The notes under the pieces are model-generated. The model was not told the DNA's origin. It searched no databases and saw only the letters and a program-made list of their open reading frames with translations. Positions 20,816 through 57,278 of a DNA stretch of 64,000 bases are shown here, in pieces. Position 1 is the stretch's first letter. Every line of letters starts with the position of its first letter. The translations under genes were made by a program, and so were the position numbers. The stretch covers positions 7,890,028-7,954,027 of the forward strand of contig OZ020519.1 of assembly GCA_963971425.1 (NCBI GenBank), in the 5' to 3' direction. This DNA is from Bryoerythrophyllum caledonicum. Taxonomy: Eukaryota; Streptophyta; Bryopsida; Pottiales; Pottiaceae.

Positions 20816-22588
20816 CATACAAAAATGTAGCAAGATTCTAAAAGGTTACCATACTAAAATTTAGCAAGACATACACCTTTGGATTGAAGATTCTTCAACT
20901 AACATCTTTCATTAGGAGGTCATTTTAGTATGAACCTTATCCTGCTCAAATACAACACCATACATGTAGAATACATGACCATTTTGCAACTTCTGAGGTA
21001 TGTAGTAGGTGCAATAATGATCTAAATTAAAATTGTCTTGTGTCATTGAATTAGGCTCAACACAAATACAAAATTTTGTAACAATTGTATACATAAATTC
21101 TTACACCTTGTATGTCAAATACACAGAAAACATCATGTTCCAATCCAAATGTGGCTTCTCGGACCTTTAATCCCTAAAGGCCCGTGACAATTTCACACCA
21201 AAACACTTCAAAATTGTTGATTCTAGTGCAATAAGTAAGGAAGGAAACAAAACCTCATATTTATCCTTTTGACCATAGGATCTCTATTAAGACTTACTAA
21301 GTAACATACTCACAAAATTTCATGCACTTTGACCGCACGGATTGAAAGATTATAGTGTTTGAAGTCAAGTAAATGGTTAATTTTCTTCCCTACGTTGAGT
21401 GGATCAACAGACTTTGACTTCACTTGGTATTAGATTTCTGCACTACGCAAGGTCTAAATCTTTTACCATTGTGTTGAGCATGATGTTAGTTCCGTGTACA
21501 ACAATTTTAGAGGTAGAGAAGGGGTATAGCATATTCAAGACAAGTGTGCAAGGAGTGGAGGTTCAAAAATTGTCATTTCACAATTTGTTTTTTTGAGAAT
21601 TTAATATGTTTTAGAATGGTAATCTAAACAGTCAAAAAGAAGGTTTACATCACATATTCTTGTAGAAAAAATAAAAAGTGAAAATTATGAAGATCTCTAG
21701 GTTTTATGTTAAAGAGATGAATTTTTTTTCTTCGCTTGCCCAATATGTGTAACAATCTGTAAAAATGATTTTTTACACTAAAGACAAGAATTTTTTTGAC
21801 ATGTTCAAAGAACGTAATATTCTCTACATGTATAGAAAATCTCAATGTCAATAAAGACTTCTAGCAAAATTTTGGAGTTGCCCGGAGTCCCCATTTTTAA
21901 CTTTGAGTGGTACTAACTTTCAAATCATGAATAAAAAAATAAAAAATAAAAAACCCCCATGGAGCTCTTATCAAGGACAATCTAGTGTAAAACACGCAAT
22001 TAAGCAATTATGCACTTAGCCAAGTGCACTGGTTGGTGGTAGAAAGCCGCAAGTTATTTGCCCATAACTTTTTTTTAAATCAAAATTTGGCAAAATTTTA
22101 GTATGTTTTTTGTCAAATTTTTTTGGTGTTTGTTGTATCATACATTGGCATCTTTATGTTCATATCAGTAATATATTTTTTCCATTCGCTAACTTTTTTT
22201 TGAAAATATATGATTTCTACTCTAGTTTGCAAATCATGCTACAAAATTATGATCATGTGCCCAAAGAGATTATAAATGTGTTATGAGTTATTATAGGATT
22301 TTAGAGTACTGCACTACAAACACAATGTGTAAGAGATACAAAAAAATATATGCAAATTCCTAAGACAGTGTAAAGTACCTCACTGTATTTTATAATGCAA
22401 AAACATACATAATCAAGCAATTCCACACTATTGCTGAGGAATTCTAAAATCAAACATATCATATGGACCACCCAATATATAAATATATACCACCAACCGA
22501 ACGATAGACACATCTCAAACTGCATAATACTAACGTACTTGCCACCTAAACTGCGTGCATGCTCTACTATAGTATATAGCTCCACGGC

Positions 22589-25500
22589 TCACAGCTCATC
22601 TGCTGGCGGAACGACTCCCTCCACGTGTCCAATGGCGCTACCTACCATAGCGGATAGTTCATGATCCTCCACTGGACGATCTCCCACATCTTCGATGCCA
22701 ATGGACGCACACTCAACAAATCGGTAATTGCCAGGAACACCCTCCCGCGTATGCCTTACCCTATCATCATTATAGAAAAAGCCATCCTTTGCATTGAAGG
22801 ACATCTCTCGCTCTGATGAGAAGGCCCCCTGAAATGCAATGATGTCCTCGGATACGCTAGATCTTGGAACGGGAGGCAAACCTGGTCCGGTATCACTCTG
22901 AGTACCTCCGAACGTCTCTTGTGTCTCCGATACAGGCTCTGATTGAGGAGGCATCGAAGGCTGTCGAATCCTCCTCTGCACCGAAAAAAATTCACATGAA
23001 TCCAATCCTTCTTCCTCCATCTCCAACCTAGGACCATCAAATGTACGCCCCCGTCCTGCCCCTGCCGCCAAACTAACATCTACTACACCTGTATCTTGCA
23101 TCCTCTCTGTAGGTGTTGCAGACGTCGCCCCTGAAGTATCTCCTACCGTCCGCTGCGTTGATGGAATTCTCTCTCCATCCTCATCGGCGTCTGAATCACT
23201 GCCAGATGAAAAATCTTCAGTGGTACCTGAACGTGGCAATCTCTCATGTAAACCACCTCCATCCTCATTGTCCTCTTCATTCCTCACTCCACCAACCACA
23301 TCTTCGGTCTCAGGTATGGTGTTGCAACCAGTACTTGTTCCACCAGTCCTGACCAACAGTTGTCCTTGGAAATTGTCGGACAACTCATTGTACAGGAATG
23401 AAACTCTATCTGTACAATCGTCAATGATGAAAACCTCAGATCCCTGGAAATCTCCTTCAAGGATCGTGGGAATGGCCGTAGATATGTTACACGCCACTAA
23501 ACCCCAACCACGGGGCAAGTATGAGCCCACTAGTCTTGCGAGCTCTGATGGAGATCTCTCAAGTGAATCAACTTCAGAGGGTTGGCGTGCCTCACTCCAG
23601 TGATCCAAGAATACAAGTGGAAGTGGAACGTCTCCAGAAACATAGTTCGGGCCAGGAGATGTACCCACAGGGTGCTGCATACAAATCACAACATCGCCAA
23701 TCGGTTGTACTACTTGCTCCAGACGCCCATTCTCTGTAAAATCAAGAGCATAGGGATTAATCGAGTTGGGATCAAAGGCCCAGCATCCACGTCGCGTAGT
23801 ACATCCCTCTGGAAGCTTCACCTTCGTGAAAAACTCCTCATTGGCATACACAGCCGCAGGTAACAAGAAGATGACGTTCCATCGTTCAATATTTGCCATC
23901 CATAATGTCAGCTGTGCAAAAGCTGCGGATAATTGGGCGTCTCCCCAATGACCATCTCCATGCCTCCCACCGCCACGTCGACAATCAATCACCCACAAAC
24001 ATGGTTTCCCCAACTCTATGTAGTCGGTGCGGAATAATCCTCTTCTACACCGAACCGGAAGAAGATTCTCTGTGTCGCTCTGCCCTGGCCTCTTGACTTC
24101 CATCTGCCATTCCCAATTAGCAGTAGTCAATTCTCCCACATCCACGGACAGTCCAATGTATCCACGCCCCCCTGCTGCAATGTCACCATAATGAAACCTG
24201 ATGGAAGGGGGGATGAGGTAGCCTATGTCTTCCAGTTTAGACACCTTCCCTCGCACAGGAGCACTCCAAGCTTTTTTCGTGGCAGCATTCAAAAGCTTCC
24301 CAAAGATATCCAGTTGTGCACTACTCCTCGGAAAATACTTCGCTACACGGATACGAAAGAACTCTTCCATGGAATCAGGTGTACTTTCCTTATTCTCCAC
24401 CATCAACCAACGGATCGAATTCATCACAGCTTCTCGTCTGTGATATCGGTCAACCACACCGGCAATCGTACGAGGATGTGGATTCTTGTCTTTTACACCG
24501 TCGAAGTAATATGCTTGAGAAGGTCTTACTCCATCCTCCCTCACCAGCTTCGCTGTAGCAGACTTTGCCAACCGAAGATAATATGGATTCGGAACCCTAC
24601 CTAGAGGCCTCAACCAATTCTGCGTCATCTCTTTTCTTGTTGGTCGTACGTCCACATTTGGATCCAGCTCTTTCTTCCTCGCCATGTCCTTCCACTTGTC
24701 CTCTTCCTCCTTGCTGTAAAAGAGAATGCCGTCTTCGTAGTCCTTGCATACTTGAATGATAGCTTCGAAGTAGTCATTGCTCGGATTCCATGCATGATTG
24801 GTCAGATCCTCCATGTTTTTGGCCAACCTCTTCACCGTGACAACTCCATCCCCCTTGGGCAACTTATGCACTGCACTTGCCGCACTCACCAAAGCAACAG
24901 CCCTGCGTGCATCGTCCGCACGTAGTGTGCTATCAGGCCTCCCGTATAGATTCCAAATCTGACGGAGCTTCCTCAAATCCTCCTCCATGGTAGAATATGA
25001 ATGTCTCTGGAACTCCGCCACGTTGATCCGCGCAGACTTCTCAATGTAAAAGCGACGATCATCATACACCACAAAAGAGGCCTCCCGCCGCTCAAACGTG
25101 TCCAGATACTCGTTTAAAGACATAGTACCATCTCTCCACTGCTGCTGTGCAAACTTACAAGCTGCTACTATATGTTGCCCATCCACCGGTTCCCAAATGA
25201 TATGATCTTGAAGCCAAGAATACTGGGATCCCATAGCACCCTGTGCAGATGCACTCCCGTGTGCAATGAACATGCGCTCAAACTCTCGTGCGGTTCCTAC
25301 CAACGGAAATGGCAGCTCTTCCTTCTCAACGACACCATCATCGGTGGTAGTATGCACGATGTATCTGATCGGTCGAAGTACCAATCTACTCACCCGAGTC
25401 GCGGATTCTGGGTCCCGTAAGCGGTTGAATACTTCTATGACCCTCTTCTGTGATAAAACCCGGTGGTTGATTTCTGGATTCTCCACAGAGACAATGCGGT

Positions 25501-25681
25501 CTATGTGTGCCTTAAACACAAAATTCCCCCACACTGATCCTTTCGCAATCTCCTCTGTTGTAGGCACTGGTGCTTTTAAATTCATTGGAGTTGGAAGATC
25601 CTGTGGTATCTCCGCATTGTCTTCAAAATCCTCTGGTATACTGTCTGGAAGGTTGTGAAAATCTTCTTCCTCCGGCGCCAT
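22589..25681 (-). CDS. ParB-like plus beta-class DNA-methyltransferase-like protein (transposon-borne)
   Basis: An uninterrupted 1030-residue frame. Residues about 50-210 include EPVDGQHIVAACKFAQQQ (165-182), like the G-Q-H-R/A-A core of ParB/DGQHR domains. Residues about 500-765 resemble a permuted N4/N6 DNA methyltransferase. A hydrophobic strand VID is followed by C-R-R-G-G-G...H-W-G-D (564-581) where such enzymes have D-P-P-Y-G...W-D. Then SELARLVGSYLPRGWGLVAC (712-731) and EVFIIDDCTDRV (749-760) sit where they have the V-L-D-P-F-x-G-S-G strand and the acidic cofactor site. Both key motifs are altered, so activity is doubtful. Residues 765-1030 are acidic and low-complexity. It may be a DNA-binding accessory protein. 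The fold call is an inference. Confidence 0.5.
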   Translation of the reverse strand: MAPEEEDFHNLPDSIPEDFEDNAEIPQDLPTPMNLKAPVPTTEEIAKGSVWGNFVFKAHIDRIVSVENPEINHRVLSQKRVIEVFNRLRDPESATRVSRLVLRPIRYIVHTTTDDGVVEKEELPFPLVGTAREFERMFIAHGSASAQGAMGSQYSWLQDHIIWEPVDGQHIVAACKFAQQQWRDGTMSLNEYLDTFERREASFVVYDDRRFYIEKSARINVAEFQRHSYSTMEEDLRKLRQIWNLYGRPDSTLRADDARRAVALVSAASAVHKLPKGDGVVTVKRLAKNMEDLTNHAWNPSNDYFEAIIQVCKDYEDGILFYSKEEEDKWKDMARKKELDPNVDVRPTRKEMTQNWLRPLGRVPNPYYLRLAKSATAKLVREDGVRPSQAYYFDGVKDKNPHPRTIAGVVDRYHRREAVMNSIRWLMVENKESTPDSMEEFFRIRVAKYFPRSSAQLDIFGKLLNAATKKAWSAPVRGKVSKLEDIGYLIPPSIRFHYGDIAAGGRGYIGLSVDVGELTTANWEWQMEVKRPGQSDTENLLPVRCRRGLFRTDYIELGKPCLWVIDCRRGGGRHGDGHWGDAQLSAAFAQLTLWMANIERWNVIFLLPAAVYANEEFFTKVKLPEGCTTRRGCWAFDPNSINPYALDFTENGRLEQVVQPIGDVVICMQHPVGTSPGPNYVSGDVPLPLVFLDHWSEARQPSEVDSLERSPSELARLVGSYLPRGWGLVACNISTAIPTILEGDFQGSEVFIIDDCTDRVSFLYNELSDNFQGQLLVRTGGTSTGCNTIPETEDVVGGVRNEEDNEDGGGLHERLPRSGTTEDFSSGSDSDADEDGERIPSTQRTVGDTSGATSATPTERMQDTGVVDVSLAAGAGRGRTFDGPRLEMEEEGLDSCEFFSVQRRIRQPSMPPQSEPVSETQETFGGTQSDTGPGLPPVPRSSVSEDIIAFQGAFSSEREMSFNAKDGFFYNDDRVRHTREGVPGNYRFVECASIGIEDVGDRPVEDHELSAMVGSAIGHVEGVVPPADEL

Positions 25682-25687
25682 GGCTGA

Positions 25688-26533
25688 CTAATCAGCTAAA
25701 TCTCCCGGTGCAGATGTAGGGGCCCTACGATGACCATCAGACGTCCTGAGCCCCGACCTAGGAATCCTGGCACCTGATCTTGCACTTCTCCCAATCAACC
25801 TCCTCTCACTTGGATCCAAACTTGATGGGCCTTCTCTTGAACCAAAAGCTACATCACTGTCAACACGTCGTGGCCTCTTCGTAGGACGTCTACTCGTTAA
25901 TGGAGGATTCGGTAATGTCTGTACCTCAGAAGTTGTGGCGGGATGTTGGCCTCCACTTCCTCTCCCCCCCTCCAATGGTCGCCAATCCAGTTGCAACGGC
26001 TCAGCAAGAATTCGATAAACTTCTGTTTCTTCCGGTTCCGCTGGTGGGGCTTGAGTTGTCGCACGTGATGGGTCCCTCTCCCGAAATGCCTCATATCGAA
26101 TATGTTCCTCCATAATCTTCTTAGCCTTCAGCACCATCTCCGGTGATAACGCTAAACAGGCTAAGACGTTGTTGTGTCTAGCAGTACGTACTGCAAGAGA
26201 GATGTTCAACCAAAACGTCTGCAATGATTTGAGGAATTTCACTTGACCTGGATTTTGAAGAAGATTCAAAGGGACAGGTGCAAGTAGCAACTTCTTCGAA
26301 AGAGAAGTCTTCACCTCCGATTGACCTGGACCCACTACGCAAGTAATGTATACCATATCATCACGTCGAAGAGTGATTGCTTGAATTTTGCCAAAACTCT
26401 TCCCCAACGCTGATGTACGCTTTCCCAACTCAAAGGGATAATCCGTCACCCACAAGAAGGCGTTCGACTCATCCACTTCCGCGATCCACCAGCCGTGGCT
26501 CTCCCAGATTCTATCAATATTTGGTGGTGCCAT
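25688..26533 (-). CDS. transposon-borne protein with basic C terminus, function unknown
   Basis: 281 residues starting MAPPNIDRIWESHGWW. The N-terminal 110 residues alternate beta-strand-like segments (AFLWVTDYPFELGKR, MVYITCVVGPG), suggesting a small barrel or BAH/PWWP-like fold, not proven. The C-terminal third is Arg/Ser/Pro-rich with a nuclear-localisation-like patch, RRPTKRPRRVD. Its stop lies six bases before the ATG of the 1030-residue gene and in the same frame. The two are therefore either a broken fusion or one transcript with a leaky stop. Not recognised as a known family. Confidence 0.6.
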   Translation of the reverse strand: MAPPNIDRIWESHGWWIAEVDESNAFLWVTDYPFELGKRTSALGKSFGKIQAITLRRDDMVYITCVVGPGQSEVKTSLSKKLLLAPVPLNLLQNPGQVKFLKSLQTFWLNISLAVRTARHNNVLACLALSPEMVLKAKKIMEEHIRYEAFRERDPSRATTQAPPAEPEETEVYRILAEPLQLDWRPLEGGRGSGGQHPATTSEVQTLPNPPLTSRRPTKRPRRVDSDVAFGSREGPSSLDPSERRLIGRSARSGARIPRSGLRTSDGHRRAPTSAPGDLAD

Positions 26534-26581
26534 AACGCAACACTCAAAAAACCTGTATATCATTACAAAACGATAGTCACT

Positions 26582-27571
26582 ATTAGTATGGAATAAGAAT
26601 TTTTGAACCACCACTAATTGCACAATTTTTTTGAACATGCAACACCCCTTGTCTACGTTTAAAAACTTTTGCACTACGGAAGATCTAAATCCAATACCAT
26701 TGTGTTAAGCATGTTGTTAGTTCTTTGGTGAAATAGCATATTAATCCAAATCAATTATTTTCACACATTGTCACACATTTTCGGCCAAAGTACCAAAAAC
26801 ACTTCTACCTTTCTACATAAATCTTCGAGATCTTCGTATGATTCACTTTTGATTTTTCCTACGGCATTATGTCATGTAAACCTTCTAATTGACCATTTAG
26901 ATTCTAATTTCAAACAAAATGAAGTTAAAAAATAAATAAATAACATGAATTAAGAATTTTTGAACCTCCACTCATTGTACAATTTTTTAGAATATGCTAC
27001 ACTCCTTTTCTACCTCTAAAAACTTTTGCACTATACAAGATCTAAATCCAATAGCATCGCGTGAAGCATGTTGTTAGTTCTTTGGTAAAATAGCATATCA
27101 ATCCAAGTCAATTATTTTCACACATTGTCACACATTTTCGGCCAACGTACCAAAAAAACCACTACCTTCCCACATAAAACTTTGAGATCTTCGTATTATT
27201 CACTTTTGATTTTTCCTACAACATTATGTGATGTAAAACTTCTTATTGACCATTTGGATTCTCATTTAAAACAATATCGAGTTCCCCAAAAAATATAACG
27301 TGAATTGAGAATTTTTGAACCTCCACTCATTGCACAATTTTTTTGAATATGCTCCACTCCTTGTCTACCTCTAAAAATTGGTACATAGCAAACTAACATC
27401 ATGATTAACATTATGGTAATTAATTGAGACCCTTTAAAATGCAAAAATTGGACACCAATTGAAGTCAAAGTCTGCTGATCCATAAAACGCAGGAATGAAA
27501 ATGAGCCTATTCTCAATTTCAAACATTATAATCTTTCAATCCGTGCGGTCAAACTTTATGAAATTTTGTGA
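26582..27571. repeat. tandem A-family-derived repeat, about 350-bp unit
   Basis: The unit beginning near AGAATTTTTGAACC starts at about 26600, 26953 and 27309, each followed by TCACACATTGTCACACATTTTCGG-type sequence in the first two copies. The third copy diverges into the usual A interior before the N gap. It lies just upstream of the 281-residue gene. Confidence 0.7.
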
Positions 27572-27771
27572 NNNNNNNNNNNNNNNNNNNNNNNNNNNNN
27601 NNNNNNNNNNNNNNNNNNNNNNNNNNNNNNNNNNNNNNNNNNNNNNNNNNNNNNNNNNNNNNNNNNNNNNNNNNNNNNNNNNNNNNNNNNNNNNNNNNNN
27701 NNNNNNNNNNNNNNNNNNNNNNNNNNNNNNNNNNNNNNNNNNNNNNNNNNNNNNNNNNNNNNNNNNNNNNN
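27572..27771. other. assembly gap (200 N)
   Basis: A run of exactly 200 N, the usual length for a gap of unknown size, lies inside the repeat-rich middle of the 12.1-kb transposon. Confidence 0.99.
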
Positions 27772-27872
27772 CACGAAGCTCTTTCTCACTTTCGTCGAGA
27801 GGAATCACGAAGGTCCTTGCATGAGGTTTGAGCCAAGAAGTTTTTGGATGGATGGAGGAGCACCAGGAGTTG

Positions 27873-28070
27873 GGGGTGTGCGCGCGCACACCCCATGAGG
27901 CGTCACGCGAACGCCATGGGGAACGAGGGGACTAGGGTTTGGTTTTAGGGTTTGGGTTTCTAGTTGCGGCGGCTAGGGTTTAGTTGTGGCGGCTAGGGTT
28001 TGGTTCTGGCGGCTAGGGATTGGTTGCGGCGGTTAGGTTTGGCTGCGGCAGCTAGGGTTTGAAGTAGTGT
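27873..28070. repeat. perfect 22-bp palindrome and a 20-21-bp telomere-like minisatellite
   Basis: A perfect palindrome centred on CGCGCG with GGGGTGTG/CACACCCC arms lies at 27873-27894. From about 27925 it is followed by five to six units of GGTTGCGGCGGCTAGGGTTT. The minisatellite is GC-rich within an AT-rich neighbourhood. Confidence 0.75.
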
Positions 28071-29150
28071 GCTGATGTGCCATTCCATAGATTTAGTGCC
28101 ACACTACGGGGCTACTCACATTACTGAAGTTTTCAGTGGGTTTTGGTGTCACTATTTGATGTTACTAGTTGACTGACTAGTTGTAAACAAATAACTTCTG
28201 TTGTATTTGTAATTTTTGAACATACTGAAGGTGTCCTCGTTTGTATGCTCAAATATTGGTACTGCTGACCTTACACTATTGTAAATCTGACCGATCTATT
28301 ATCATCATGAACCTAACCCTGGAGTTCCCTCGGATTCAGAATTGAAACAAGGTTAGAAGCTTACCAAATTTGCAGAAGTCTCCTCGATGTGCAAATTTCC
28401 TTCAATCTACACAGTCCACACAAAGTTGACAGAAGTCAGTGACTGAAGTAAAAACGCACATGGCCTTGAGCTTTCGATTGCAAGAGAGCTTACCTTAGGT
28501 ACTGGGAAGAGAAATGACCTCCAGATTTTCACAGAAACCTTGTATCCATGCTGGAAACTTGTGCCTGAAGTATACTAGTCAAAATTTGACTTTCGAAATT
28601 TGGACCTTTTGCTTTGTATTTTCTTATGTTAAAAATTTTTACATAATATATTAAAATTTTGGGCTATATGTAATACGAAGATACATAGGAGTTTTTATCA
28701 CATAGTTTACCATATAAATTTTATGCATGTGTCGCAGGTAAAGTGGGAAGGGTTGAAAAACATGTCCAATAACGACAGAATGGTGATTCAATGTTTAACG
28801 CCATCAAGCATCAGTGCGTGTACCACTAATACCTGCTACGTATCTTGAGGTAAACATTTATTTTTATACAAGTTTAAGATTGATTATTGATTGATCTTCT
28901 ATACTATGTTGTTTGTAGAATAACTTTTATGTGGATGTACAAACCTTTCTTTTATTAGGGATTGCAGTAATAGCTCGTAGACAACATGGTTCATTTTCTT
29001 CCCTAGGTTCAGTGGATTCCCTCCGTTTTCAGTTCACTTGGATTCAAAAGATTGCATCACACCTGATCTAGATTCATTATCATCATGTCAAAACTGATAT
29101 AAGTTCCATTTTACACCAATGTTTAGGGATACAATAGAGGTGTAGCATAT
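28071..29150. other. central non-coding part of the 12.1-kb transposon
   Basis: No coding frame is supported. The part from about 28975 to 29150 reads as a fragment of a family-A copy in the opposite orientation (TTCATTTTCTTCCCTAGGTT, GTGTAGCATATTT). Confidence 0.45.
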
Positions 29151-30098
29151 TTAGCCCCTAAAGGATCATGTGTCATAAATAAGATTTTTCAAAATTTAGG
29201 CACGTTGCTATGGTGTCAGTTTCCAACATTCCTTCTTTGAAAATTTTACTATAGAAAGGCATTACCAAGACTTCAGTGGGAAAACAATTTTTACCTTAAT
29301 TGGACATTTGATAAAAAAGTATAAGGGTTTTGAATTTCAAATGGGGAGAGCGGGCAAGTCCGGCACGTCCAAAAACTTTTGCTTAGACACTCTGTTAAAT
29401 GTGAGATTTCCAGTACTTGCAAGTAATATTATTTCCTTTGATGTTGTCAAAATAAGTTCTTGTCTTTAGTGAAAAATAACATACCAACACAAACATTTTC
29501 ACACATTGTCAGCCAGTGTTGGGCAAGGTATCCACAAAACGTCTTGTTTTTCAAATAAAACCTAGATATCTTTTTATTTTTTAGTTTTTATTTTTTCCAG
29601 AACAATATGTGGTGTAAACCTTCTTATTGACCTTTTGGAGTACCAATCTAAAACATATTAAGTTCACAAAAATCTACAGAGTGAATTAACAAATTCCGAA
29701 CTTCCACTCCTTGCTTAATTGTTTTGAATATGCTACACCCGTTCTCTACCTCTAAAAATTGGTGTACAAGGAACTAACATCATGCTTAACAAGATGGTTA
29801 TGGATTTAGACCTTCTGTAGTGCAAAAATTTGACACCAAGTGAAGTCAAAATCTACTAATCCACTCAACGCAGGAAAGAAAATGAACCATATGCTTGACT
29901 CAAACACTATTATCTTTCAATCTGTGCGGTCAAAGTTTATGAAATTTTGTTTATATATTACTTAATAAACCTTAAGTGAGATCCTACGGTCAAAACTAGA
30001 AATTAAATTTTTCGTCTCCATTTTTGTTTATTGCATTAGAATCCAACAATTTTGAAGTCTTTTTTGTGTAAGACTGTCATTGTACCTTCAGGGTTAAA
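29151..30098. mobile_element. family-A non-autonomous element nested in the 12.1-kb transposon
   Basis: It starts TTAGCCCCTAAAGGATC and ends CCTTCAGGGTTAA. The interior holds the family's TTTTCACACATTGTCAG, TTCTCTACCTCTAAAAATTG and TCAACGCAGGAAAGAAAATG segments. It is about 950 bases long and non-coding. Confidence 0.7.
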
Positions 30099-30315
30099 GA
30101 CTCCGTGCAAGGAATTCATGCTCTATAAATTCTTATTTTTTTCATTTCAAAGCAGTTTTATCAAAAAGTCCAATTTCATCATCATATTTTGAACAGTAAA
30201 TATGTGTTTAGAAACATTTCTTTTATTAGATGAATGGTGCTTTGAAGGTTTAGAATTAGTACATGTATTTTGACTAATGTGCAGCCATAATGTTCCTATG
30301 TTTTTAATAGTGATA

Positions 30316-30834
30316 ATGGAGAGCCGCACGATTCAGACTCCTTCGATACGGCCACACATCCAAATGGATAATATACATTCCAATAGCTCAGTGGGGGCTC
30401 GTTTAGTACGAGCAGCACGTGCAAGGCAAATTCAACAGAGATCTGTTGGGATCATGACATCTGAATTAGATACGGCCGTAGAATTGCTTTCTGAGAGAGG
30501 AGATGTGGTGGGCTTAGCAACTAGGGAGCATGCATTCAAAAGTGGCATGGAATTGAATGGGTCGAAGTTGTTCCCATACGAGGTGGCGGTGCGTATCACT
30601 AGGGTAGATGATGCATTGCATTGGACCGGAGAGATTGTAGGAGAACGCCTTGGCATGTGTATGGGCTTGATCATTCGTTGGCATCGGTCTTTGCTACGTG
30701 TAGTGGCTGTAGAACTTGATATTACAGATGTCCATGGTGACATTGGATCACAGATAGCGCCTGCACAAGTGATGGCTCCAGAATTTAATTTCCCTGAGTT
30801 CATCAACACACCTGGATCCACCCAGAGGTCTTGA
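30316..30834 (+). CDS. small unknown protein or 5' exon on the right arm of the 12.1-kb transposon
   Basis: About 172 residues from MESRTIQTPS. It is Arg-rich at the start (LVRAARARQIQQRS), then mixed alpha/beta. No family is recognised. It lies just upstream of the transposase in the same direction and may be its first exon, but no clean splice joins the two frames. The codon pattern and length suggest a real gene of the element. Confidence 0.45.
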   Translation: MESRTIQTPSIRPHIQMDNIHSNSSVGARLVRAARARQIQQRSVGIMTSELDTAVELLSERGDVVGLATREHAFKSGMELNGSKLFPYEVAVRITRVDDALHWTGEIVGERLGMCMGLIIRWHRSLLRVVAVELDITDVHGDIGSQIAPAQVMAPEFNFPEFINTPGSTQRS

Positions 30835-30908
30835 CGCAGTAGTCAAGCTTCTAACGCCATAGATGAAATTCGCCGTTTTCCCAGCCTACTCCCTCAAATA
30901 TCCAAGAT

Positions 30909-33506
30909 TTGCCCCATGTAGATGGATTTTCTTATCTGAGACCAGCACGTCGTCCCTATTCTATGCAAAATAGGAGAAGGAGAGATTCAAGGGAGACATC
31001 ATTGACAGAAGCTGCACCATTTAAGGTATCGCTTAGAAGCGTGCAAATTGCAATGGCACAAGGAGGATGCAAACGCAATTGTTTGAGGGACGTTCCAGCA
31101 AGGTATCTATTGGACATGCGATATAATGCATGGGCTACTGAGTTTTCAGTACGAAGTACGTGGATGAGACAGATGCTGGTTTCTTTTTATACAAGGACGG
31201 AAGGAACTCGTCGAGACAAGTTTGTAACAAAGTTAGATGGGAAAGAAGTTTGCAATGCTTGCTACGCTCTTGGGGTTGGATATTCACAGAGGCGCTTTAA
31301 GCAATTGAAGAAGGACTGTCTAATATATGGGAGAGTGACATCGATTCACGGCAATACCCTTTCAAATCCGATCAGAGAGAGCACTAGAATGTCTGCAGCA
31401 GAAGCTTGCTTTAAATCATTTATCGATGAAGCTGGTTGTCCTCAACCTCATCGTTGTATTCGCCGTAAGAGTGACAACGAAGTGGTGCTTCTCATTCTCC
31501 TTCCTATGAATACAGCCAAATTTGATGTATTCAATTACGTGAACGAGGAGGTCAAGAGAATTTGTAATGGTGAAACCATTTCTATGAGTTCGTTCCGGAG
31601 GATGTGGCGCATCAAGTATCCCCACGTTCAGGTACCTCCATTCTCAAGATTCTCAAAGTGTTATCATTGTTGAGAGTATAAATGTGCCATGGAGGGAACC
31701 ACCAATGCGGATGCAAGGATAAAAATAAAGGAGTTGTTTATGTTGCATCTGCGCAACCAGATGGAAGAACGTAGGCATTATTGGATATTCAAGAGGTCGT
31801 GTTATATTAGCCCTGAGTTGTACATGTGCATCATAGTGGATGGCATGGACCAAAATACGACCATGGTACCGAGGATGCGTCAGACTGTGAAGAACATTGA
31901 ACACCGATTTGTGAAGACCCATCTATGTGGTGCTCTTGTACATGGGATTGGTTTATATTGCGACGTGTGGTTTGGGGCTCACCACAAACACGATAGCAAC
32001 CAAGTCGTGAGTACATTGTTGTACGTGATAGGAGATGTGTTGCGGAGGAGGGGCTTTTTGCCACCAACACTGCGAATTCAGGCGGACAACTCCACACGTG
32101 AGAACAAAAACATTTATATGTTTGCTCTATGTGCTACATTGGTGGGATTGGGGTTTTTTCAGGAGGTAGAACTATCTTTTCTCATAGTGGGCCATACACA
32201 CGAAGATATTGATCAACGCTTCAGTTGTATATCAAATACGTTGAAGAGGTCGGACGTGGATTCGTTGAAGGAAATGATGAGTCTTATAGAACGAGGAACA
32301 TCCCCTACGGAGGCATTTGTTAGCGCGCGGCTGCTAGAGAATGTATGGGATTGGAAAATGTTCATAACTCCTCACTTATTGACAGGTCAGGATTCATTGG
32401 TGGGCATAACATTTCCGCACCACATGCGATTCTATATGGACAATCGAGAAGGGACTCGTGAGGTTCGAGTACAACACAAGCATTATTGCAAGGATCCATG
32501 GGGACCGGAGGCAGGGACGAAAACTTTGAGGTCATTGCCAAGTAGGGATGAGCGACCATCGTTTGCGGAAGTATTTGCAGCGGACGAACGGGAGTTGAAG
32601 GCGTTGGATGACTTCATTATATATAAACAAAGGTGCATTCAACGGTTGCAGCATGAGGACAAGAATCGTGAGGCAAAAGTAGAGGCTGAAAGATTGAAAC
32701 TCTATTTAGCTCAATTTCCACACAAAGACCGTAGCAATGAGCATCGTACCTCACCGTTTTGGCCTTCAGAGTTCTCCAACATCGGACCTACAGAGAGTGC
32801 ATCTTTGGATGTAATGGATGGTGCAAGTGAAGAAAATCGCGAGGTACATGTCGTAGAGCAGGTAGTGGCCATGCTTCCAAATGCCGAGGCTCGAGGATAC
32901 TTTGGTCCTCGTAGAGGAAGACCCTCTAATCAAGCAGTGCGTAGGGCACAACAAACAGAGCGCAACTATGTTGAGGAACGCGCCGAAGAAGGAGCAATGT
33001 ATGAAGGTAATCACGACCCATTTCCACCATTTAATCCACAATCTGATATCCGTTGTGGACAGTTTGTAGCCTTGAGTGTTGATCGAGCAGAGATAGAAGG
33101 CGGTGTACCATTCTATGTGGGGAAAGTGATTGAGGAAGGAAAAAACCGATGGAGACTTAAGATTAAAGTTTGTTGGTATTGGCCCATCATCCAAAGGGGG
33201 GTTGCTGATGGACATGGATCTTCTGCACAACGATATGCGAATTGCATGGATTCATTCTGGGAGCCATCTGGGGAGAACCATAGTTGGGTAGAGAAAGATG
33301 CATGCATTTTTTCATGGGTAGACACACCGGAAAGAACCATGTCCGGGGCCAACGGGTGCAGAAAGCGCAATGTATTTGGAGTGCAAGTTGAAAGCAGGAT
33401 TCGCATTCTTCAATCGGCAAAGGCTCACATCCTACAATATATTGCAATGCAAACCGAAGCTATCGATGACGACCGTTTGCAAGCAGCCCTAAATTCTATG
33501 GAGTAG
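30909..33506 (+). CDS. DUF7869-type DDE transposase of the 12.1-kb transposon
   Basis: Two frame-matched parts, 30909-31673 and 31689-33506, are separated by one in-frame TGA right after a FSKCYHC motif. The first part has CKRNCL, a VCNACYALGVGYSQRRF segment and SIHGNT, typical of the region before the catalytic core. The second has IIVDGMDQ, IQADNSTRENKN (first part of the core) and VGHTHEDIDQRFS, the signature of DUF7869 proteins common in oomycete, algal and bryophyte repeats. Asp51, Asp133 and Asp173/175 of the second part are candidate metal ligands. The C-terminal region (PFYVGKV...LKIKVCWYWP) looks like a small barrel reader domain. The true start is uncertain; the open frame begins about 30867. 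Confidence 0.7.
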
Positions 33507-34180
33507 ATAGTGTGCCTTTTTTAGAGTATACTAGTTGTGTATGGTAATTGATATATACTGTATGTGTAAGAGTAGTATATTCTAAGGGTGATGTAAGACG
33601 TTATGTCATTAATCCTTTAGAGTAAAGCTGTGTTTACTATCGGTGCTAAGTCCAATTGTTGAAGCATCTATATTTAGTTTTCACCATTGTATGCATTATG
33701 TACTATGTAGAATATCTTTTAATCAACTGCCAACCCTTGCAAAAAGTATGTTTTTTTGTAATTACGTCTGTTTATATACTACAATTCTTCAAATCTATCT
33801 TTGGAATATTGTGAAACTATATTAAATACACATTTATCTAATATTAACGAAGGGACACCACAAATTAGTTGAAAATGCCAAAAAATCGCTTCCAATATGA
33901 ACAACCATAATTGTACATAATATTGTTGCAGAAGCTCAATTTTTTTTCCTTAGGAAAACATTTTTTTTCTTTGATTTTTTTTTTTTTTTTCAATTTTGCC
34001 ACTTTTGTTCGCAATGGCCGCCGTTGTACCCAAGTGCACTTTTAAATGGCCAAGTGCATAATTGCTTAATTGCGTGTTGTAAGAGTTTAAAAAAATATTT
34101 CTTTTCATATGCTAGTAACCTGCCCAAAGTCCAAAACGTACGCCCCACATACACTTGGGCTCTTAGGCAATAAGGGTTAA

Positions 34181-45976: not shown

Positions 45977-48900
45977 TGTTCTAGCAGGACGGCGGCAAAC
46001 TACTATGGTACTATGTAGTTTGTATTAACTGTGCAAAATTGACTCATTCTCTCTGACTCATAACATGCATTTGATCACTCATACACATAGTTTCGTCGCA
46101 CGAACTCGCTTCATTTCACAGGGTGGAAACAAACAGATAATCAGATCAACACTCAAGGGCGTGTAAATAGTGGGTTCAGGCATAACTAACTACTCATAGT
46201 TTGGTGCGTAACTAACTACTCATAGTTTGGTGAGGTTCGCCTAACGGTCTGGTGTGGTTATCAACAACTTCTGTTTGAGTTCGTGTGACGGTTTTCTATG
46301 ACATGTAGGCGTCCAACTGTGATGTCCATCTGGACAAGGGTTTTACTGACTTCAACATCCCCCCGCAGTCCGTGTACTCAAGGGAGCGGACTGTATATAG
46401 TATCCACGACTTCCGTTGCTGGGCGGCGTAGCGAAATAAGGCCGATGCTAGCACGAAGGAGTTGGAACCGGTCGACTGGGAGGGGCTTGGTAAAAAGATC
46501 CGCGAGTTGGGCAGATGTGGTGATGTAAGAGACGTTGATGTGACCAAGGTGTTGATGTTCACGAATAAAGTGATACATCACATCGATGTGCTTGGTCAGG
46601 CGGTGGAACTCGGGGTTGTGAACTAGTCGGATTGCACTCTGGTTGTCGGAGAAGAGTGGTGTGGGCGTGGCCTGGCCAAAACGAAGGTTGGCAAGGAGAT
46701 GGCGAAACCAAATGACATCCTTGGTTGTGGAACTAGCAGCAATGTATTCAGATTCCGTCGTGGATGTAGCCACGCATGCTTGTTGGCGGCTTGCCCAGGC
46801 GATGGGAGCTCGATTGAGCAGAAGAAGTGTGCCGGTGCGTGAGCGTCGATCAGTGGCGTCACCAGCATAGTCGGCGTCAGCGTAGGCGTCTAATTGGACG
46901 GTCTTCATTCCACCGTCATAGCAGATCGCAAGGTCGAGTGTACCAGCGAGGTAGCGAAAGATGCGGCGAATAGCCTGATAATGCACCTGTCGGGGGTTTG
47001 AGGAGTACTGCGCAACAGTGTTGACAGCATAGTTGATATCCGGGCGGCTTAAAGTTTGGACAAATATAAGGCTACCAACAGCAGCGGGGTATGAAAAAGG
47101 TGGGTCAATGACCGGCTCAGAGTCGGAGTCCAGTTTCAGGTTCGGGTCCGCCGGTGTGGAAATAGGAGCGTAGGTGGTGAAACCAAAAGCGGCATGTATA
47201 CGCCGTAAATAAATCTCTTGATTGATAAAAATCAGGTGTTGTCGGAGGTCTTGGTGGATGTGTAAGCCAACGTACAGGTGGCCGCCGGAGCGGGTGATAG
47301 AAAAATGTTCTTGTAGGTGGTGCATCATCTCGTCCATCTTGGAGGTAGAAGTGCTGCATGCTAGACCGTCGTCTACAAACAGAGACAGAAGCAAGGATGG
47401 ATCGCCCTCAGAGATATAGACGCACAAGTCAGCTTTTGTCGGTTGAAGCTTGAATTTGACCAGAAAGTCATGGAACGTGGAGTTCCATATACGTCCGGAC
47501 TGCTTTAGTCCGTACAAACTGCGAAGGAGGAGGCAGACCGAGATACCGCCGGTCGGGCTAGCAACCTCAAAACCTAGAGGTTGCGCCATATAGATCGTGA
47601 AGTCTATGAGTCCGTTCAGGTAAGCAGTTTCTACGTCGAATTGAGCGAGATGCATGTGTTGCTGGGCGGCGATTGCTAGCATGGTCCGAATGGACTCATA
47701 CTTCACAACAGGGCTGAATGTTTGGTCGTAATCGACTCCCTTCGTCTGCGTGAAACCGCGTGCCACTAGGCGGGCCTTATACTTGCCAATAGTACCGTCA
47801 GGGTTTGTCTTGACGCGGTAGATCTACTTGCATGAGATGGTTTGGTGGCCAGTTGGGAGAGGAACAAGCTTCCAGGTCCCCGCTTTCACCAAAGCGTTGT
47901 ACTCCGTCTGTATGGCGGTAAGCCAGTTGCTGGCTTGAGGGCTCTGCATGGCAGCGTTATATATCTCGAGGTCGGGTGGAATAGAAACTGGAGGAACGGC
48001 GACTCCAAGAAATGTTGTAGGAACATAATAATCTTGAAAGCGGGATGGTGCGTAGCGGGCACGTGTCGGTCGTAGACCGTGGTGATCGTGGTTGGACGTT
48101 AGGCTGTCCGGGTAGATGAGGTTCAGTTGGCTGAGAAGAGACTTTGGTGTGATCGCCAACTGGTGCACCGTGCGAACTTGATGGTTGACTGGTCGTGTCA
48201 GCCACATTAAGAGTGGCTGGGCGTGTGCTGGCCGGTGAGGTACTGGGTATCATGGGAGTCAAGGCCGGTTGGCAGGGAATGCTTGGACTTGCGCTCGCAG
48301 GTTCTGCGCCGACTGCGTGTGTCTCAAAAGAGAAAAGGCCGGAGTATACCTCGGTTGTGTCATGTTGAGGGAGGGTGTATTCGTCAAAGATGACATCTCT
48401 ACTGATGATAATACGTCGCTTCGTTGTATCCCAGAGTGTGTAGGCCTTGGATTCAGTGCAATATCCGACAAAGATCGCCTTTGTACTTTTGACGTCCAAC
48501 TTCCGGCGATGCACCTTTGGTATATGGACAAATGCCAAATTGCCAAAAACTCTGAGATGGCTCACAGTAGGCTTGCGCCCCCTCCATAGTTCGTAAGGCG
48601 TCTTGTAGTCTCTCGTCCGTGAGCTTGTTCGGTTCAACACATAGGCTGCGGTTTGGATTGCTTCCCCCCAGATGCGTAAGGGGAGGTTCTTCGCGTGGAT
48701 CATTGTACGCGCGCACTCAACAAGCGTGCGATTCTCGCGCTCTGCAGTGCCGTTTTGTTCGGGGCTATGTAGAGCGGTGAGCTCATGACGGATACCCTCA
48801 TCTACAAGGTAAGCACTAAACTCAGTGCTGAGGAATTCGCCCCCTCGGTCGCTCCGGAGCTGTTTGATACGCGTACCCCGCTCTTTCTGTACAGATGACT

Positions 48901-50018: not shown

Positions 50019-53000
50019 CTACTCCTCTTGGATTTCAGCATTATTGACTGTGTTTGTTGCGGTTGTAACATAGCACCCTTCCGTGGGTGCTGATCTTCGA
50101 ATTGCCTCTGTCTCCTGAATCTCCGATTGTAAGCCTTGGAAGTCCGCGTCATAACCGATTGCGATTCCACTTGCTAGCGGCTGCCGATGCTGTATTGCAT
50201 TATGCCGACCTCGGACGTCTGTTCGGCATGCGATCTTCCATCCGCGTCAGTTGGGGTCATCCGAGAAGAAAACCTGTTGACAATGCAAGGGGAATGCAAA
50301 CGAATCCGGATGCACTCTGCCGTCCATGTGGTTGAAGTTCGCCACGCTAAATCCGTACTTGTCACGCTCAATGCTGGGCACTCGCACATCCCGTGAGGAT
50401 CTTACCCATTCGCAGAACAACACCGTGGTGCAGTGATTACGGTAATCCAACTCCAGTATTTCTTGGATACATCCCACATGCTCTGCAGTATGGTCAATAG
50501 GCCTCCCATTCTGAATCCCCCAACGCAGCTGTTGTGTGTAGGTTGCCACTACACAGAAGTCTCGAGTAACCAGGCCCCCCTCGGATGTCCGAACCCGCAG
50601 ATGCATCCGAATGCGCTCATTTGACGATGTGAGGTTGCAAACCGCTCTGGGGGACATGAGTACTGTACCACATCCTCATCCAACTATTCAACGGCCTCTT
50701 CTGCTTGCAGCACCCGTGCCCTTAGCCAATCTGCAAAGCACGGCAAATCGCTAAGTTCGGGGGGGTAAGTTACAGGCCTAGATGGTCGATGACATCTTGA
50801 CTGTACTCGAAAGGCCTCTCGCTGTTCCCATCGGCGTCCCTTTGCGATGATGTACTCTCTGTACAAATCTCCCACCTTTGTTGTTAGACAATTCGAATGC
50901 ATGATAAACCCCTACAACACATGTGTGGACTGTGCATATGTCCTATGAGACGTCTGCGAAGACATTGTATTCTCCGTGTTCAAGAAGAGTAATACACTGC
51001 AACTACGTCAAGAAGACATCTATGAAAACTGATGAATGTCTAAACGGACGTCATCTTAGACATCTTTGTTGACGTGCTCGTGTCTTAATTTATATGGAGT
51101 CCTTGATATTAACAAGGCCCGGTACTACATAAGTGAAAACTGAATGGCCGGCCTCTGATGTATAAGTATTGGGATAGAAACTCACTCTCGCCACGGTCCC
51201 AAGCACGGTGCGTTGTCGATGACGAATGCATGTGCGTAGCCCCGTACCTCATCGAACAATCGGCGCTTTGTGGATTCACTGTGCCCTAAGATCTCGTCAT
51301 TCATGGTGGCATCTTCGTTCGCGTCCCATACACGGTAAGTTGTTGCTCTGTGTCGTTTCAGGTACTCTGTACAAAACCCAAGCGTTTCGTCGAGACAGTA
51401 CCCTTCCGCTATGCTTCCTTCAGGATGTGCGTACGTCCTTACATAATCTTTCAGCGTCTTCAGGTATCTCTCAATTGGATACATCCATCTGCAATGGACC
51501 GGTCCACATATGAACAGTTGCTCCACAAGATGTACCGGAAGATGTGCCATGATGTTTAAGAACGTCGGTGGAAACTCCTTCTCCAACACACATGTTGCCA
51601 TTACCACGTTGCGCATGAGACTATCGCGAGAGTCCTCTCGTACCTCCTTCTCACATATATGCTGAAAAACCCTGCACATTTTGATGATGGCAACGCGCAC
51701 CTCTTCGTCCAGCACGGTCCGAATGGCCACCGAAAGTATCTACATCAGGCAATACAGTCATCATCTTCACCATGAACGTGAACAAGAAGATGTCCTCCTA
51801 GACATCTATGTATGTATGTAAAGACGTCTATATAAACATTACGATGGCAGTATGAACTTGAGGATGTCTGCATGAATATGACGATGTCTATGTATGAACA
51901 TTCGAATGTCTATAGATGAACATGAGGATGTCTAAGTAGGAACATTCGGATGTTTGTACAAACATGATGATGTCTATCTATGCACATGACGATGTCTGTA
52001 TAAGCATGAGGATGTGACTGTGCAATTCCCTTCTGTTCATCACAACAACTCTCCCAGCTACTTGTAGGCAAAACATAGTCCGTTCAGAATTCCAGTGCAT
52101 ACCTGCTGCATGAGGACCTGGTAGTCATGTGTCTTCATGTTCTGCAATTTGCCGTCCTGCAGGCGCTTGTGAATTGCCCCGACGTACTTCGTAGGAGTGC
52201 GGATACTGGATACGATGTGCACAAACTCTTGTTTCTCCTCAGGCTTCAACATGTACGGGGCCTACGGTATGTAGTATTCGTCACCTCGGCGTCGTGGAGG
52301 CTGCAACCAGATCTCCTCACGTATGTTCAAGTCCTGTACATCTTGACGACTTCCTAGGCTGTCATTCATTCCAAACAATGTCTTCAGCATGTTCTCGCAT
52401 AGATTTTTCTCGCAATGCATGACGTCCAAGACGTGTCGAACCTTTAGATGCTGTTACAAAGTACCACTTCAAATTATTAGAGCCGGATTGTGTCTGCTGA
52501 GTGTGCCACAATTCTAGCACTCGCTACCGTCAACGTGTGCAGGTGTCTACACGGACGTCTACTGAGACATTCATCATGTCGCAAAAGGCATCCAATATCC
52601 GAACTATAAACTTCTTGATGTCTACAGAGACGACGTGAGAGTGCAAAGGACATCTAATATAATAGTAGAGGATGTATATGTTTACCTACCAGTAAGGTAA
52701 TTCAAAAAATGTGCTCAAACGCTTTACTCCCGTACTGTGAACAGTGTCACTGGCAGCCCCTTCTCGGCCGCCAAGATCCAGGTAAGACTGCCTCCACGCA
52801 GCGTACCGAATGACGTCAAGTCCAGAGATGGATGAAGGCGTTGTCCGAGTCTCACGTTGGCCATTAAACCGAGTGTACCTCCGATATGGATGATGACGAC
52901 CGAGATATCGACGTATTCCCCCATACACGATCTTTGACCCTCTCGCCGTACGGTCACGACCCAAGTCCCCTGTCTTTGCCATCCTAGCATCTATCTCTGG

Positions 53001-54470
53001 TCCACATTTTGGACAACCTTTATATCCCTTGCGGGTTAGGCCAGATATCAGCACGTACGCAGGGAAATCTGAAATAGTCCACATGAGCAATCCGCGCAGG
53101 TTGAAGCGTCGAGACCCCACCTGTTGGCTAAAATCCTATGCTGGTACACCTTGCCAAAGTAGATGGAGCTCATTCAACAACGGGCGCAAATATACATCAA
53201 TGTTTGTCGGAGTTGGCGACCTCTTCCCCGATATCAATATGGACAACGATATGAAGAACTTCTTCGTGACAAACCATGGCTCCAAGTTATACATCAGAAC
53301 TAGTACTGGCCAAGTCGACAAATTCGTGTTGCTCAATTTGAAGGGATTGACGCCATCGAGTGCTAAAGCTAGGCGCATGTTGCGGTCCTCTTGTCCAAAG
53401 ATGTCAAACGCAGCGTCTGTGTTGATGTGCTTCCATGCAAGACTGTCAACCATAGATCGCATTATGCCGGGCTCACTAACATGCTTTGTGTGACTCGTCA
53501 ACATGCTTGCAACCTCTGGCGATCTCCACATCCGTTTCAGTCGGGGAATAAGAGGGAAGTGACGAATCACCTTTGCTGGGATGGAGGTTGTGCCCTCCAA
53601 CCATCGAGACTTGGAACACTGCGGGCATGTCAGCAAGTCTGCATTATCGTCCTCGTAAAGCACACATCCATCTGGACATGCGTGGATGTTGTTGTAGTCC
53701 AATCCAAGCCTTCGGATGGTCTTCGCAGCGGCATAATGACTTCTAGGCAGCTTGTTCCCCTCCGGAAGTAAGTCCTCCGCCAAGTACGGCAACAACTTGG
53801 TTTGGAAAGTGTTGCTCACCCCAAACACCACACACATGTTCATGAGGACGATCAAAGCTGATACAACACTGGTTTTCGATCCTGGATACAATGGTGTCGT
53901 GGCTTCCGCATACAAGCGTTCGAGGTCATCGATTGTATCGCTGTCCAACTCATCGTTCTCAACCGCATTGGGTTCCCCTCCTGCATCCATGTAAAGTGCA
54001 TCACCGCGATCCGAAGCATCCATGACCTGCCGCTGGACGTCATGATACTCATCCAGTGGAGTCGCGTCTTCTGGAACATCATCATGTCCGGAGACGTCTT
54101 GAACGACGTCGTGGGGGACATCATTGTGGACATTGTTTGGGACATCCTCGACGACGTCGTCGTCGTATGCAATATCCTCCACCCAAATACCTTCGGCTGG
54201 ATATCCGTCGGGGGGGTCACCACCTATGATGGACTTAGTCAGAAATGGGTCTCTGCCAACTTGTGCATGGTGCTCCCGAATGACGCGTATTCGCTGGCAT
54301 CGACCCCCATGACAGTTGCGGCAAGGGCAGTAGTATGTTGTTATGTTCTGCGTCGTGGCCACTCGTAGCTCGGTCTGGAGGATAAGGTCACCAAGTGGGA
54401 TGTGTCGCATTGTCCTTCCATCAGCATCGATTTGTATTCTTGCGCCGCGGCAAAGCCTGTCCGTACTCAT
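50019..54470 (-). pseudogene. CACTA TNP2-type transposase (Transposase_21), broken
   Basis: It starts MSTDRLCRG at 54470. An N-terminal transposase-associated zinc-like segment, YYCPCRNCHGGRC, is followed by the Transposase_21 region with ACPDGCVLYEDDNADLLTCP, CPQCSKSRW, NTDAAFDIFG, LALALDGVNPF and LLMWTISDFPAYVLISG. Further exons at about 52450-52103 (HLKVRHVLDVMHCEKN) and 51739-51186 (a DUF4218-like part: MAHLPVHLVEQLFICGPVHC) follow, then a DUF4216-like tail to about 50019 ending near QVFFSDDPN. Introns are filled with GATGTCT repeats. At least three in-frame stops, one right before DFSQQVGSRRF, indicate it no longer encodes a full transposase. Confidence 0.8.
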
Positions 54471-57278
54471 TGCTCCAACTTCTCTGCAAAGGATTACAAA
54501 AGGTATGACACAATGCGAGAAGTACTGAACGAAGAACATGCTTGGTACTAACAGATGAACAAGACCGCAAAGATGCGGTTATCTGCACAACGTCTATGTG
54601 GATGTCTTTGAGAACGCAATGACGTTTACACTGACATCTGTGACGACATCCTTAAAGACATTTAGTGAGATCCGACATGTCTAGGCAACTCACCAGTGGC
54701 TTCTTCCCCTGTTGACTACAACCGTGACCGTGACGACGGATCAACCAGTCTCGTAAATAGATAAGCATAGACAAGTATTTGCGACAAGGATGTGGGCAGC
54801 CCTACCGCCACATGTGTATCCTTATGCAATTCAACCATAATGCAGATTCAATAAATGTCGTTGGAGATGTTAGCAGACATCTGATGCATTCATCATAGAT
54901 GTCAGTGCATACACTTATGAGATTACAATAACCAAATGAAGTATATTTAGTGCAACAGATACAAACATGTCTTCACATAGACATGGATAAACCATGAACA
55001 TGCCATTACAAATCTGCATGCTCTATATAGATGGTATTGATATCTTCAAAACTAGCGCCGTGCTATCACTAAGTTTATTCTATGTACTGTGATGCGCTTA
55101 GAATGCCTGCAAGGTGACACGATACACTATTCCGCAATCATTGCAAGACAAACTTGGTCATACAACCACTGGTCGTAGTCGTCCTCCCAAGTGTCAAACG
55201 GATAACAACCCTCGTAGAACCATGACATGTTGTACATGTTCTTGTGGTACACATCATCCACGGTATCAGGTAAGAAATCAGTGGTGTTCATCAATCCAAG
55301 CTCGTATAAATACATGTGTTCACTATGCAGAAGCACTAGCCGCTGCAAGTACGCGGCATGCTGTGCATCATATTCTTCAAATGGATATGTGCCATACGGA
55401 TGATCGCACTCTCCCACGGATTCCACATCTGAGCATGCCTCTACATCCAACGCCATGCTGACACAAAGACACGGCTTATAGGTCCTGTAATCGCGACACA
55501 TGCAATGGGATGTGCATGGGCGGGTACATGCGACGGGGTTATAGGCTCACGTAATAGCACCGATGATGTTACAGGTAACGGAATAATATCGCTAGATATG
55601 TTTACAGAGACATCTACGATGACATCCCCGTCGACGTCCGTAGGTAACTCATAGGCATGATGGACACTTACCAAAAATCAAGTGTCTTTGATTTTACATT
55701 TGCACATCTAGCTAGGCAGCACTCGACCCTTCTTCCACTGGCAAGTGCAATGTAAGCGTTGTTTGCGCACGACAAAATCCAAGCCCAACGTCCGCTTCAC
55801 CTGCAACGGACACGTGCACGATGGTTTTGGGCAGCCCTACTTATCACGTCCACAGTCCACACAAGGGCAGTTACAAGGCTTGACGGATTTCGAACAATGA
55901 CGCTGCATCTGCAAATCAATTTGGTTGCACAGGCGTTACTGACAATTGAGCACAATATCACACTTGCGTGAAATTTATCTTTTCCAGTACAGATGTCTAC
56001 AAGGACATTGACAATGACATCCTCAGAAACGTCCCCAACTAATGCATTGTAAACATCGTCCACTGTCATTGACCATACACATAGTGCACATGAAAGTCAT
56101 GGTCTTTGAGAAATCTATCCTCATTTATACATGAGAAATGTCCACATGGTATTCTGATATAGATTAAATCAGTACTTAAAACTTCTGGACGTCGTGTACA
56201 TAGAATGCATTGGTATTCATTACAATTTACAGTGTCTATGTAAATGTAAGTCCATCACATCGTGTACGCTTCTTGCGACAATTGCCTTCATTATTTGGAA
56301 CTGTAATATACTTGTATACATATATGGTAGCAGTACAACTCGGGGAAGAGATTTTAGAATTCACTTTCTCATAAGCTATCACCATATGAGTATTTTCAGC
56401 GGGTACATGCTGAATTATTAAAATTTATTTTTTCCCCTTTCCCCACTACAAGAAAATAGGGTGTTTAGCAACGTTTTGAAAAATTCCTAAGCAACGCCTA
56501 GGGGCTTGCTTTTTGTAAAAGCAACAGTTGTAGCGTGATTTTATGTACCTAGGCGTTGCTTAGGAAGCCCCTAGGCATTGCTTAGGAAGCCCCTAGGCGT
56601 TGCTTAGGAATTTTTCAAAATGTTGCTAAACACCCTAATTTTCTTGTAGTGCCCATACTTATCATTTTCATTCCACTTTGCTTCGCAACTCTTCCCCACT
56701 GTTACATAAGACGTCAGGATTGTTCTTACATACGACTAAAGACATTAAATCACATGTTGACCGTGCCTACTGTGACGACGTTTACATGTAAGTACCAAAC
56801 TTCCGACCTCCCAATGTCTCCAGAGAGGTTCGGATGTCCATGGTGATGTCTACAATGATGTCCATGGTGATGTCTACAATGATGTCCATAGGGATGTCTA
56901 GGTGGATGTCAAGTTGGATGTCTAAGGGGATGTCTACATTGATGTCTACAAATTATAGGCCTGTCCCATAACGTACACCAGCCCGTATTCCACGTGGCTC
57001 GCCAACTTTAGGTACGAGAAGCACACTATAGAGAAAGGAGCCGTGCGCACATAGGACTCCCACTTGCTATCAAGGGGTACTCATAAACCCTAATGTAGTC
57101 CATTTCTTTGCATTCAAACATGGGACTAACTACACAATTCCTTGAGCACGATAGAGGAGTAGGATCTAGATACACTGTACCAGAGGAAGTGCGAGGGTCG
57201 GAGGTGACAGATGCAGTTCTACACATTTTCAGCAACTTTGTAGAACAAATTGCAAGAGTCACTCCTCCTACAGCAACA
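54471..57278. other. central region between the divergent CACTA genes
   Basis: Contains GATGTCT-type repeats (54580-54690, 54860-54990, 55600-55650, 55990-56040, 56820-56960), a nested 208-bp MITE and an acidic minus-strand frame at 55456-55127 (MALDVEACSDVESVGEC...). That frame could be a TNP2 upstream exon or spurious. Probable location of both promoters. Confidence 0.5.
56444..56651. mobile_element. 208-bp palindromic CACTA MITE
   Basis: It starts CACTACAAGAAAATAGGGTG and ends with the near-perfect complement CACCCTAATTTTCTTGTAGT-G. Inverted arms of about 60 bases include AACGTTTTGAAAAATTCCTA. The 3-bp target duplication is CCC on both sides. It is non-coding and nested in the large CACTA element. 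Confidence 0.9.

Follow-up and report, generated by a model that had tools for sequence, protein, structure and literature searches.

What kind of transposon carries, beside its transposase gene, a long second gene whose product looks like a ParB protein joined to a DNA methyltransferase, and what might such a protein do for the element? This question is raised by a 64,000-nt stretch of DNA from the moss Bryoerythrophyllum caledonicum (assembly GCA_963971425.1, contig OZ020519.1, positions 7,890,028 to 7,954,027; hereafter, the window), in which an earlier note, made from the sequence letters, had pointed to a DNA transposon of two gene arms, one with a DUF7869 transposase and one with a putative accessory protein. 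The explanation we prefer, tentatively and with somewhat less than even confidence, is that the window holds one dead copy from a transposon family with two divergent genes that has been active recently, whose accessory protein would be a DNA-binding pseudo-enzyme that recognizes the element's own DNA, and which would be kin in kind to the Sola-1 transposon of the brown alga Ectocarpus.

Ends of the element and its target site

The bounds of the element could be placed exactly, at 21991 and 34078, with GTAA on both sides as a 4-bp target-site duplication (21987-21990 and 34079-34082), just as the earlier note had it. The end sequence AACACGCAATTAAGCAATTATGCACTT lies at 21991-22017 on the + strand and at 34052-34078 on the - strand, and its mean occurrence in 100 shuffles was 0. 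The terminal inverted repeats (TIRs) as a whole were assigned to 21991-22022 (left, + strand) and 34047-34078 (right, - strand, the complement of the left end); counted from 21988, the inverted arms are 35 nt long and 94% complementary.

We searched the genome (437,360,962 bases in 894 contigs, the window being C7:7890028-7954027 in our numbering) for the terminal repeat, a check that the earlier note had proposed. The exact 27-mer of the end was present 567 times in forward and 563 times in reverse orientation, or 1,130 times in all, and the reversed control pattern 0 times. When the first 310 bp of the left end were used, the 40 matches scored, from 859 first-look candidates, were 96-100% identical; for the right end, 40 of 1,350 candidates were scored. 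In viral contigs searched for the end pattern, none was found. All six copies with both ends paired are bordered by 4-bp duplications, and these vary in sequence (GTAA, TGAA, AAAC, TATG, TATA and TGTA); the five besides the window's span 12,555, 12,698, 12,728, 12,772 and 13,042 bp. By its terminal inverted repeats and its duplication of fixed 4-bp length, the element fits a cut-and-paste (TIR) DNA transposon. Among the first 100 ends listed, there were 25 pairs of inward-facing neighbors less than 20 kb apart, of which 10 span 12.4-13.6 kb and are read as full-length copies, and 11 span only 2.2-7.1 kb and are read as deletion derivatives.

The flanks also gave information about the site of insertion. 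Forty distinct end flanks (of 51 found), which are not fully independent as they include left and right junctions of paired copies, had A at position -6 in 25 cases, C at -5 in 22, and A or T at -3 in 32 and at -2 in 32, the 4-mer itself being AT-rich. G stands directly 3' of the duplication in 5 of the 6 paired copies, and this preference, together with those of the flanks, argues for a target site near the palindrome AC-TWWA-GT.

Several observations concern the placement of ends along the contigs. Of the exact ends listed, 49 are on contig C1 (65 Mb), 38 of them within its first 13 Mb and 2 from 13 to 53 Mb; the structure of this contig may be unusual. Two right ends on different contigs, L047 on C6 and L048 on C4, are flanked by identical bases, which points to duplication of a stretch or to insertion into some other repeat. 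Also, a second copy of the end (L005, 3083) is located about 1.6 kb or less from the left end of the copy on C9; therefore, copies cluster or nest there.

Linkage of the two arms

The two arms are transcribed outward, as had been claimed: the accessory gene occupies 22589-26533 on the - strand and the transposase gene 30316-33506 on the + strand. Other copies carry the same gene set. From best-match lists, 45 accessory and 72 transposase matches were scored, and 22 of the 45 accessory matches had a head-to-head transposase 6.0-8.4 kb away, where about 0.04 would be expected by chance. Copies L039 and L041, two of the three long stretches compared, align with the window from the interior of the accessory gene to 250 bp or less from the right end at 98.6-99.1% identity; in the third, L040, the right arm was not seen within its 8.7 kb.

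An assembly gap of 200 N separates the genes in the window (27572-27771), and a 200-N gap was present in all five copies read there, namely the window's, L039 (2358-2557), L040 (2513-2712), L041 (6300-6499) and L057 (892-1091). The gap site of the window corresponds to about 811 bp in the C14 copy and about 646 bp in the C9 copy, each with its own 200-N gap. Since all five copies have the gap, the linkage of the arms rests on scaffolds, shared duplications and repeated pairing, rather than on gap-free sequence. The intergenic stretch, whose length differs from copy to copy, seems hard to assemble, perhaps as a result of long repeats or unusual structure. It contains tandem repeats of about 355 bp (26589-27394), one more direct copy of which is found at 29476-29775, while others are inverted. 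Repeats of about 20 bp (GGCGGCTAGGGTTTGG-like) lie close to the gap at 27922-28079.

The transposase

The assignment of the transposase to DUF7869 held firmly: the profile match to PF25273 (E 4.6e-50, 170.3 bits against a Pfam cut-off of 26) covers a putative DDE/RNase-H-like core at 31905-32453 on the + strand. DUF7869 is a Pfam entry without function, and no use of the name was found in the literature searched. The 248 relatives with this domain, of which 120 were listed, include proteins of sea urchins, amphioxus, mussels, a sponge and the liverwort Riccia. In its closest relatives the protein has about 1,063 aa, and the long aligned relatives have 1,044-1,070 aa; frames of 1,077 codons occur in L039, L041, L053 and L054 (L041 and L053 being the same copy), and none in L055 or in L052, which is the window's copy. 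Two TGA codons in frame, at 30832-30834 and 31671-31673, interrupt the latter, and its reading frame changes somewhere from 30834 to about 30900. Of the 72 transposase matches, 42 lack stops and have frames of 1,062 aa or more, and both genes are open in 15 of the 22 paired copies, one of these, on C12, with small indels near the start.

The C-terminal part of the transposase (33027-33404, + strand) looks BAH-like according to Foldseek, which matched it to PtSHL (row 38, probability 1.00), and to profile searches, in which all three PDB matches up to E 10 were BAH proteins with weak E-values (0.063-0.18) and Pfam BAH was matched in 1 of 12, again weakly (E 0.13). A similar stretch was also present in several other relatives and in some from animals. 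Possibly, this predicted tail is a built-in chromatin reader.

The accessory gene and its product

The earlier note had named a 1030-residue partner and a 281-residue protein. Separate 281- and 1030-residue proteins are ruled out, as relatives that span the junction are one protein, and the element thus has two genes and not three. Open copies of the gene have about 1,311 codons, and longer relatives have 1,205-1,488 aa. The TAG at 25688-25690 (codon 282), which interrupts the gene in the window, was found in only 1 of 30 aligned copies, namely the window's. Twelve of the 30 are open over their aligned length, and 22 of the 45 accessory matches lack stops and have frames of 1,311 aa or more. 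Because both of its genes are broken while many copies are open, the window's copy is read as dead and its family as recently active. That the transposon family carries a DNA-modification-like or DNA-binding accessory of its own, as the earlier note had it, is borne out by the copies.

The accessory frame appears to be under constraint. The pooled ratio of nonsynonymous to synonymous polymorphism (pN/pS) for 10 of the 12 open copies (L011 and L012 dropped) was 0.30, with values of 0.15 for the ParB part and 0.24 for the methyltransferase part. Shared variants had a pN/pS of 0.30, against 0.56-0.59 for private ones; for shared versus private variants in broken copies, the Fisher P was 0.0005. 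This test used 27 of the 30 copies, with L032 (part missing) and L011 and L012 (near-identical to L010) dropped. The same end recurs in one copy from a distant subfamily, some 600 bp past the accessory gene. Among the candidates scored, those sharing most words with the query, none of the accessory's relatives came from a named species. Sequence searches of phages, prokaryote genomes and viral contigs also gave no relative, five phage records matching only at E 0.8-5.

The description of this protein as ParB/methyltransferase-like was upheld by predicted structure and found no support in sequence-profile searches (Pfam, PHROGs, PDB), which returned scattered weak rows that we take as chance. 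In the predicted model, residues 493-735 (23372-24100, - strand) clearly match a beta-class N6A/N4C methyltransferase fold, and residues 19-376 (24449-25522, - strand) match a ParB fold moderately. Matches of the accessory to viral-protein models include the names ParB/Sulfiredoxin and chromosome partitioning protein, in lists that mainly probed the methyltransferase and integrase-like cores of the two models. As placed by strand order, the position expected for a DPPY-type motif reads DCRR, invariantly in 13 aligned sequences, and the Gly-rich S-adenosylmethionine (SAM) motif was not seen in the aligned rows that reach its expected place. The methyltransferase signature motifs look to have been lost from the predicted fold. 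In the ParB-like part, the presumed stretch reads DGQH(I/V)VAA-like, without the conserved active-site arginine of ParB/Srx domains.

Relation to known systems

The earlier note had taken the arrangement to be unreported, and this proved incorrect, as algal transposons with such a protein have been published (PMC12477816). In the algal class, ParB-like and DNA methyltransferase parts are joined in one protein, with the transposase on the opposite strand (PMC12477816); the moss element has the same layout and, by predicted fold, the same pair of folds, the ParB match being moderate. The example from Ectocarpus, Sola1-1_Ec32, is a Sola-1 transposon whose methylase is predicted to be active, and active methylation of element DNA has been proposed for the algal proteins, which occur in green and red algal transposons also (PMC12477816). 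Likened by description, the moss element most likely is of the same kind as Sola1-1_Ec32, yet the host is a moss, the accessory is larger and the motifs appear replaced. Sola2 elements make AT-rich duplications of 4 bp and have short inverted ends (PMC3627910), features that our element shares, and Sola1 is listed for the moss Physcomitrella (PMC9033089).

Fusions of ParB and DNA methylase domains are known in bacteria, for example Bce_0392, which has non-specific nicking activity, and ParB/Srx domains such as that of DdrB have a highly conserved active-site arginine (PMC5512222). By predicted fold, the moss accessory shares the fusion type with the bacterial and phage proteins; in contrast to them, it is larger, its motifs are apparently replaced and no sequence relative was found. 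Transposons that encode a second protein unrelated to the transposase include KolobokP, with a His-Me finger endonuclease, and fungal elements with TET/JBP dioxygenases (PMC9587614, PMC12730594), which differ from ours in both transposase and partner. VANDAL elements likewise combine a transposon-encoded accessory with non-coding tandem repeats. They belong to the Mutator superfamily, unlike the present element. Their VANC proteins bind short motifs multiplied by tandem repeats in the non-coding parts and remove methylation (PMC5735166); the repeats are shown targets in VANDAL and proposed targets here.

Possible functions of the accessory protein

In the explanation we favor, the DUF7869 protein would cut and paste the element by means of its DDE/RNase-H active site, its BAH-like tail perhaps steering it to certain chromatin. 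The accessory, with its ParB-like part and a methyltransferase fold whose motifs look replaced, would bind the element's own DNA; its likeliest job would be to bind the non-coding DNA, that is, the intergenic repeats, the ends or both, and thereby to keep the element expressed or to get its ends recognized, as VANC does for VANDAL. We favor DNA binding over methylation because the DNA-handling shape is kept and the methyltransferase signatures look lost, and a role in expression or against silencing because VANC proteins offer an analogy; its main rival is a co-factor that binds the ends, followed by an active methylase as published for the algae. The earlier suggestion of silencing evasion or end recognition may thus be retained, on analogy. 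A more specific form, which we think rather improbable, is that the accessory has lost methylation in a plant lineage and acts as an anti-silencing clamp: its ParB part would load on element sites and possibly spread by a nucleotide switch, its emptied methyltransferase fold would read DNA or shield it from host methylation, and the BAH-like tail would let the transposase read chromatin. Some of the counts stand against our reading: 15 of the 25 inward end pairs fall outside 12.4-13.6 kb, the accessory gene has a stop or a frame change or lacks sequence in 18 of the 30 copies aligned, and 23 of the 45 accessory matches have no transposase among the matches listed.

The moss accessory could instead be an obligatory co-factor of transposition with no role in silencing, binding DNA so as to pair the ends or load the transposase in the way of TnpA in En/Spm, an alternative that we regard as possible and on balance unlikely; the same divergent layout in many copies and the one end common to a subfamily with a diverged accessory agree with it. 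On the other hand, DUF7869 is common in named animals and accessory relatives, within the scored candidates, were not found in named species, and this type of transposase may therefore not need an accessory. If instead the accessory were an active methyltransferase with a changed active site, marking the element's own DNA, one would expect the clear beta-class fold of the model and the constraint on the methyltransferase part (pN/pS 0.24), and what has been predicted for Sola1-1_Ec32 and related algal proteins points the same way (PMC12477816); DCRR in place of a DPPY-type motif and the unseen SAM motif make this improbable.

That the protein is captured cargo with no part in transposition would agree with the accessory matches that lack a transposase among the matches listed and with the frequent short end-to-end distances (11 of 25), but many copies, further subfamilies and 13 relatives have all kept a long constrained frame, and such proteins recur in algal transposons (PMC12477816), so that we hold cargo to be quite doubtful. 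Still less probable is a ParB-like part that serves as a nicking nuclease to help cut or resolve the element: Bce_0392 nicks non-specifically (PMC5512222), yet the active-site arginine was not seen at its presumed place in the moss protein. Finally, the recurrent 200-N gap would suit two different elements joined by chance or misassembly, the case that the earlier note had named as fatal to its reading. We reject this, leaving it next to no probability, as nearly half of the accessory matches are paired in one layout against almost none expected, and the outer ends share a 4-bp duplication in 6 of 6 pairs.

Elsewhere in the window there are an ABC transporter gene and an adaptin gene, and the segments 46378-47823 and 51182-54578 hold a copia-type reverse transcriptase (RVT_2) and CACTA-type pieces (DUF4218, Transposase_21), a content in keeping with a chromosome of a land plant.

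Significance

In land plants, no report of a ParB-methyltransferase accessory of a transposon was found in the literature searched, from which most subscription journals are absent. Elements of this kind are already known in algae; as far as our searches reach, what is new here is that the host is a moss, that the transposase is linked to DUF7869 and has a BAH-like tail, that a target site is described, and that the accessory shows evidence of selection together with an apparent loss of methyltransferase motifs. DUF7869 gains a biological setting, in which the ends, the target site and its 4-bp duplication are defined. For the algal accessories, no functional work was found in the literature searched, and this recently active family, with its high copy number and so many copies open, offers a system in which the role of such proteins can be tested. 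If the loss of motifs is true, then the value of the accessory to the element would lie in DNA binding and not in methylation, which would change the reading that has been proposed for the algal proteins.

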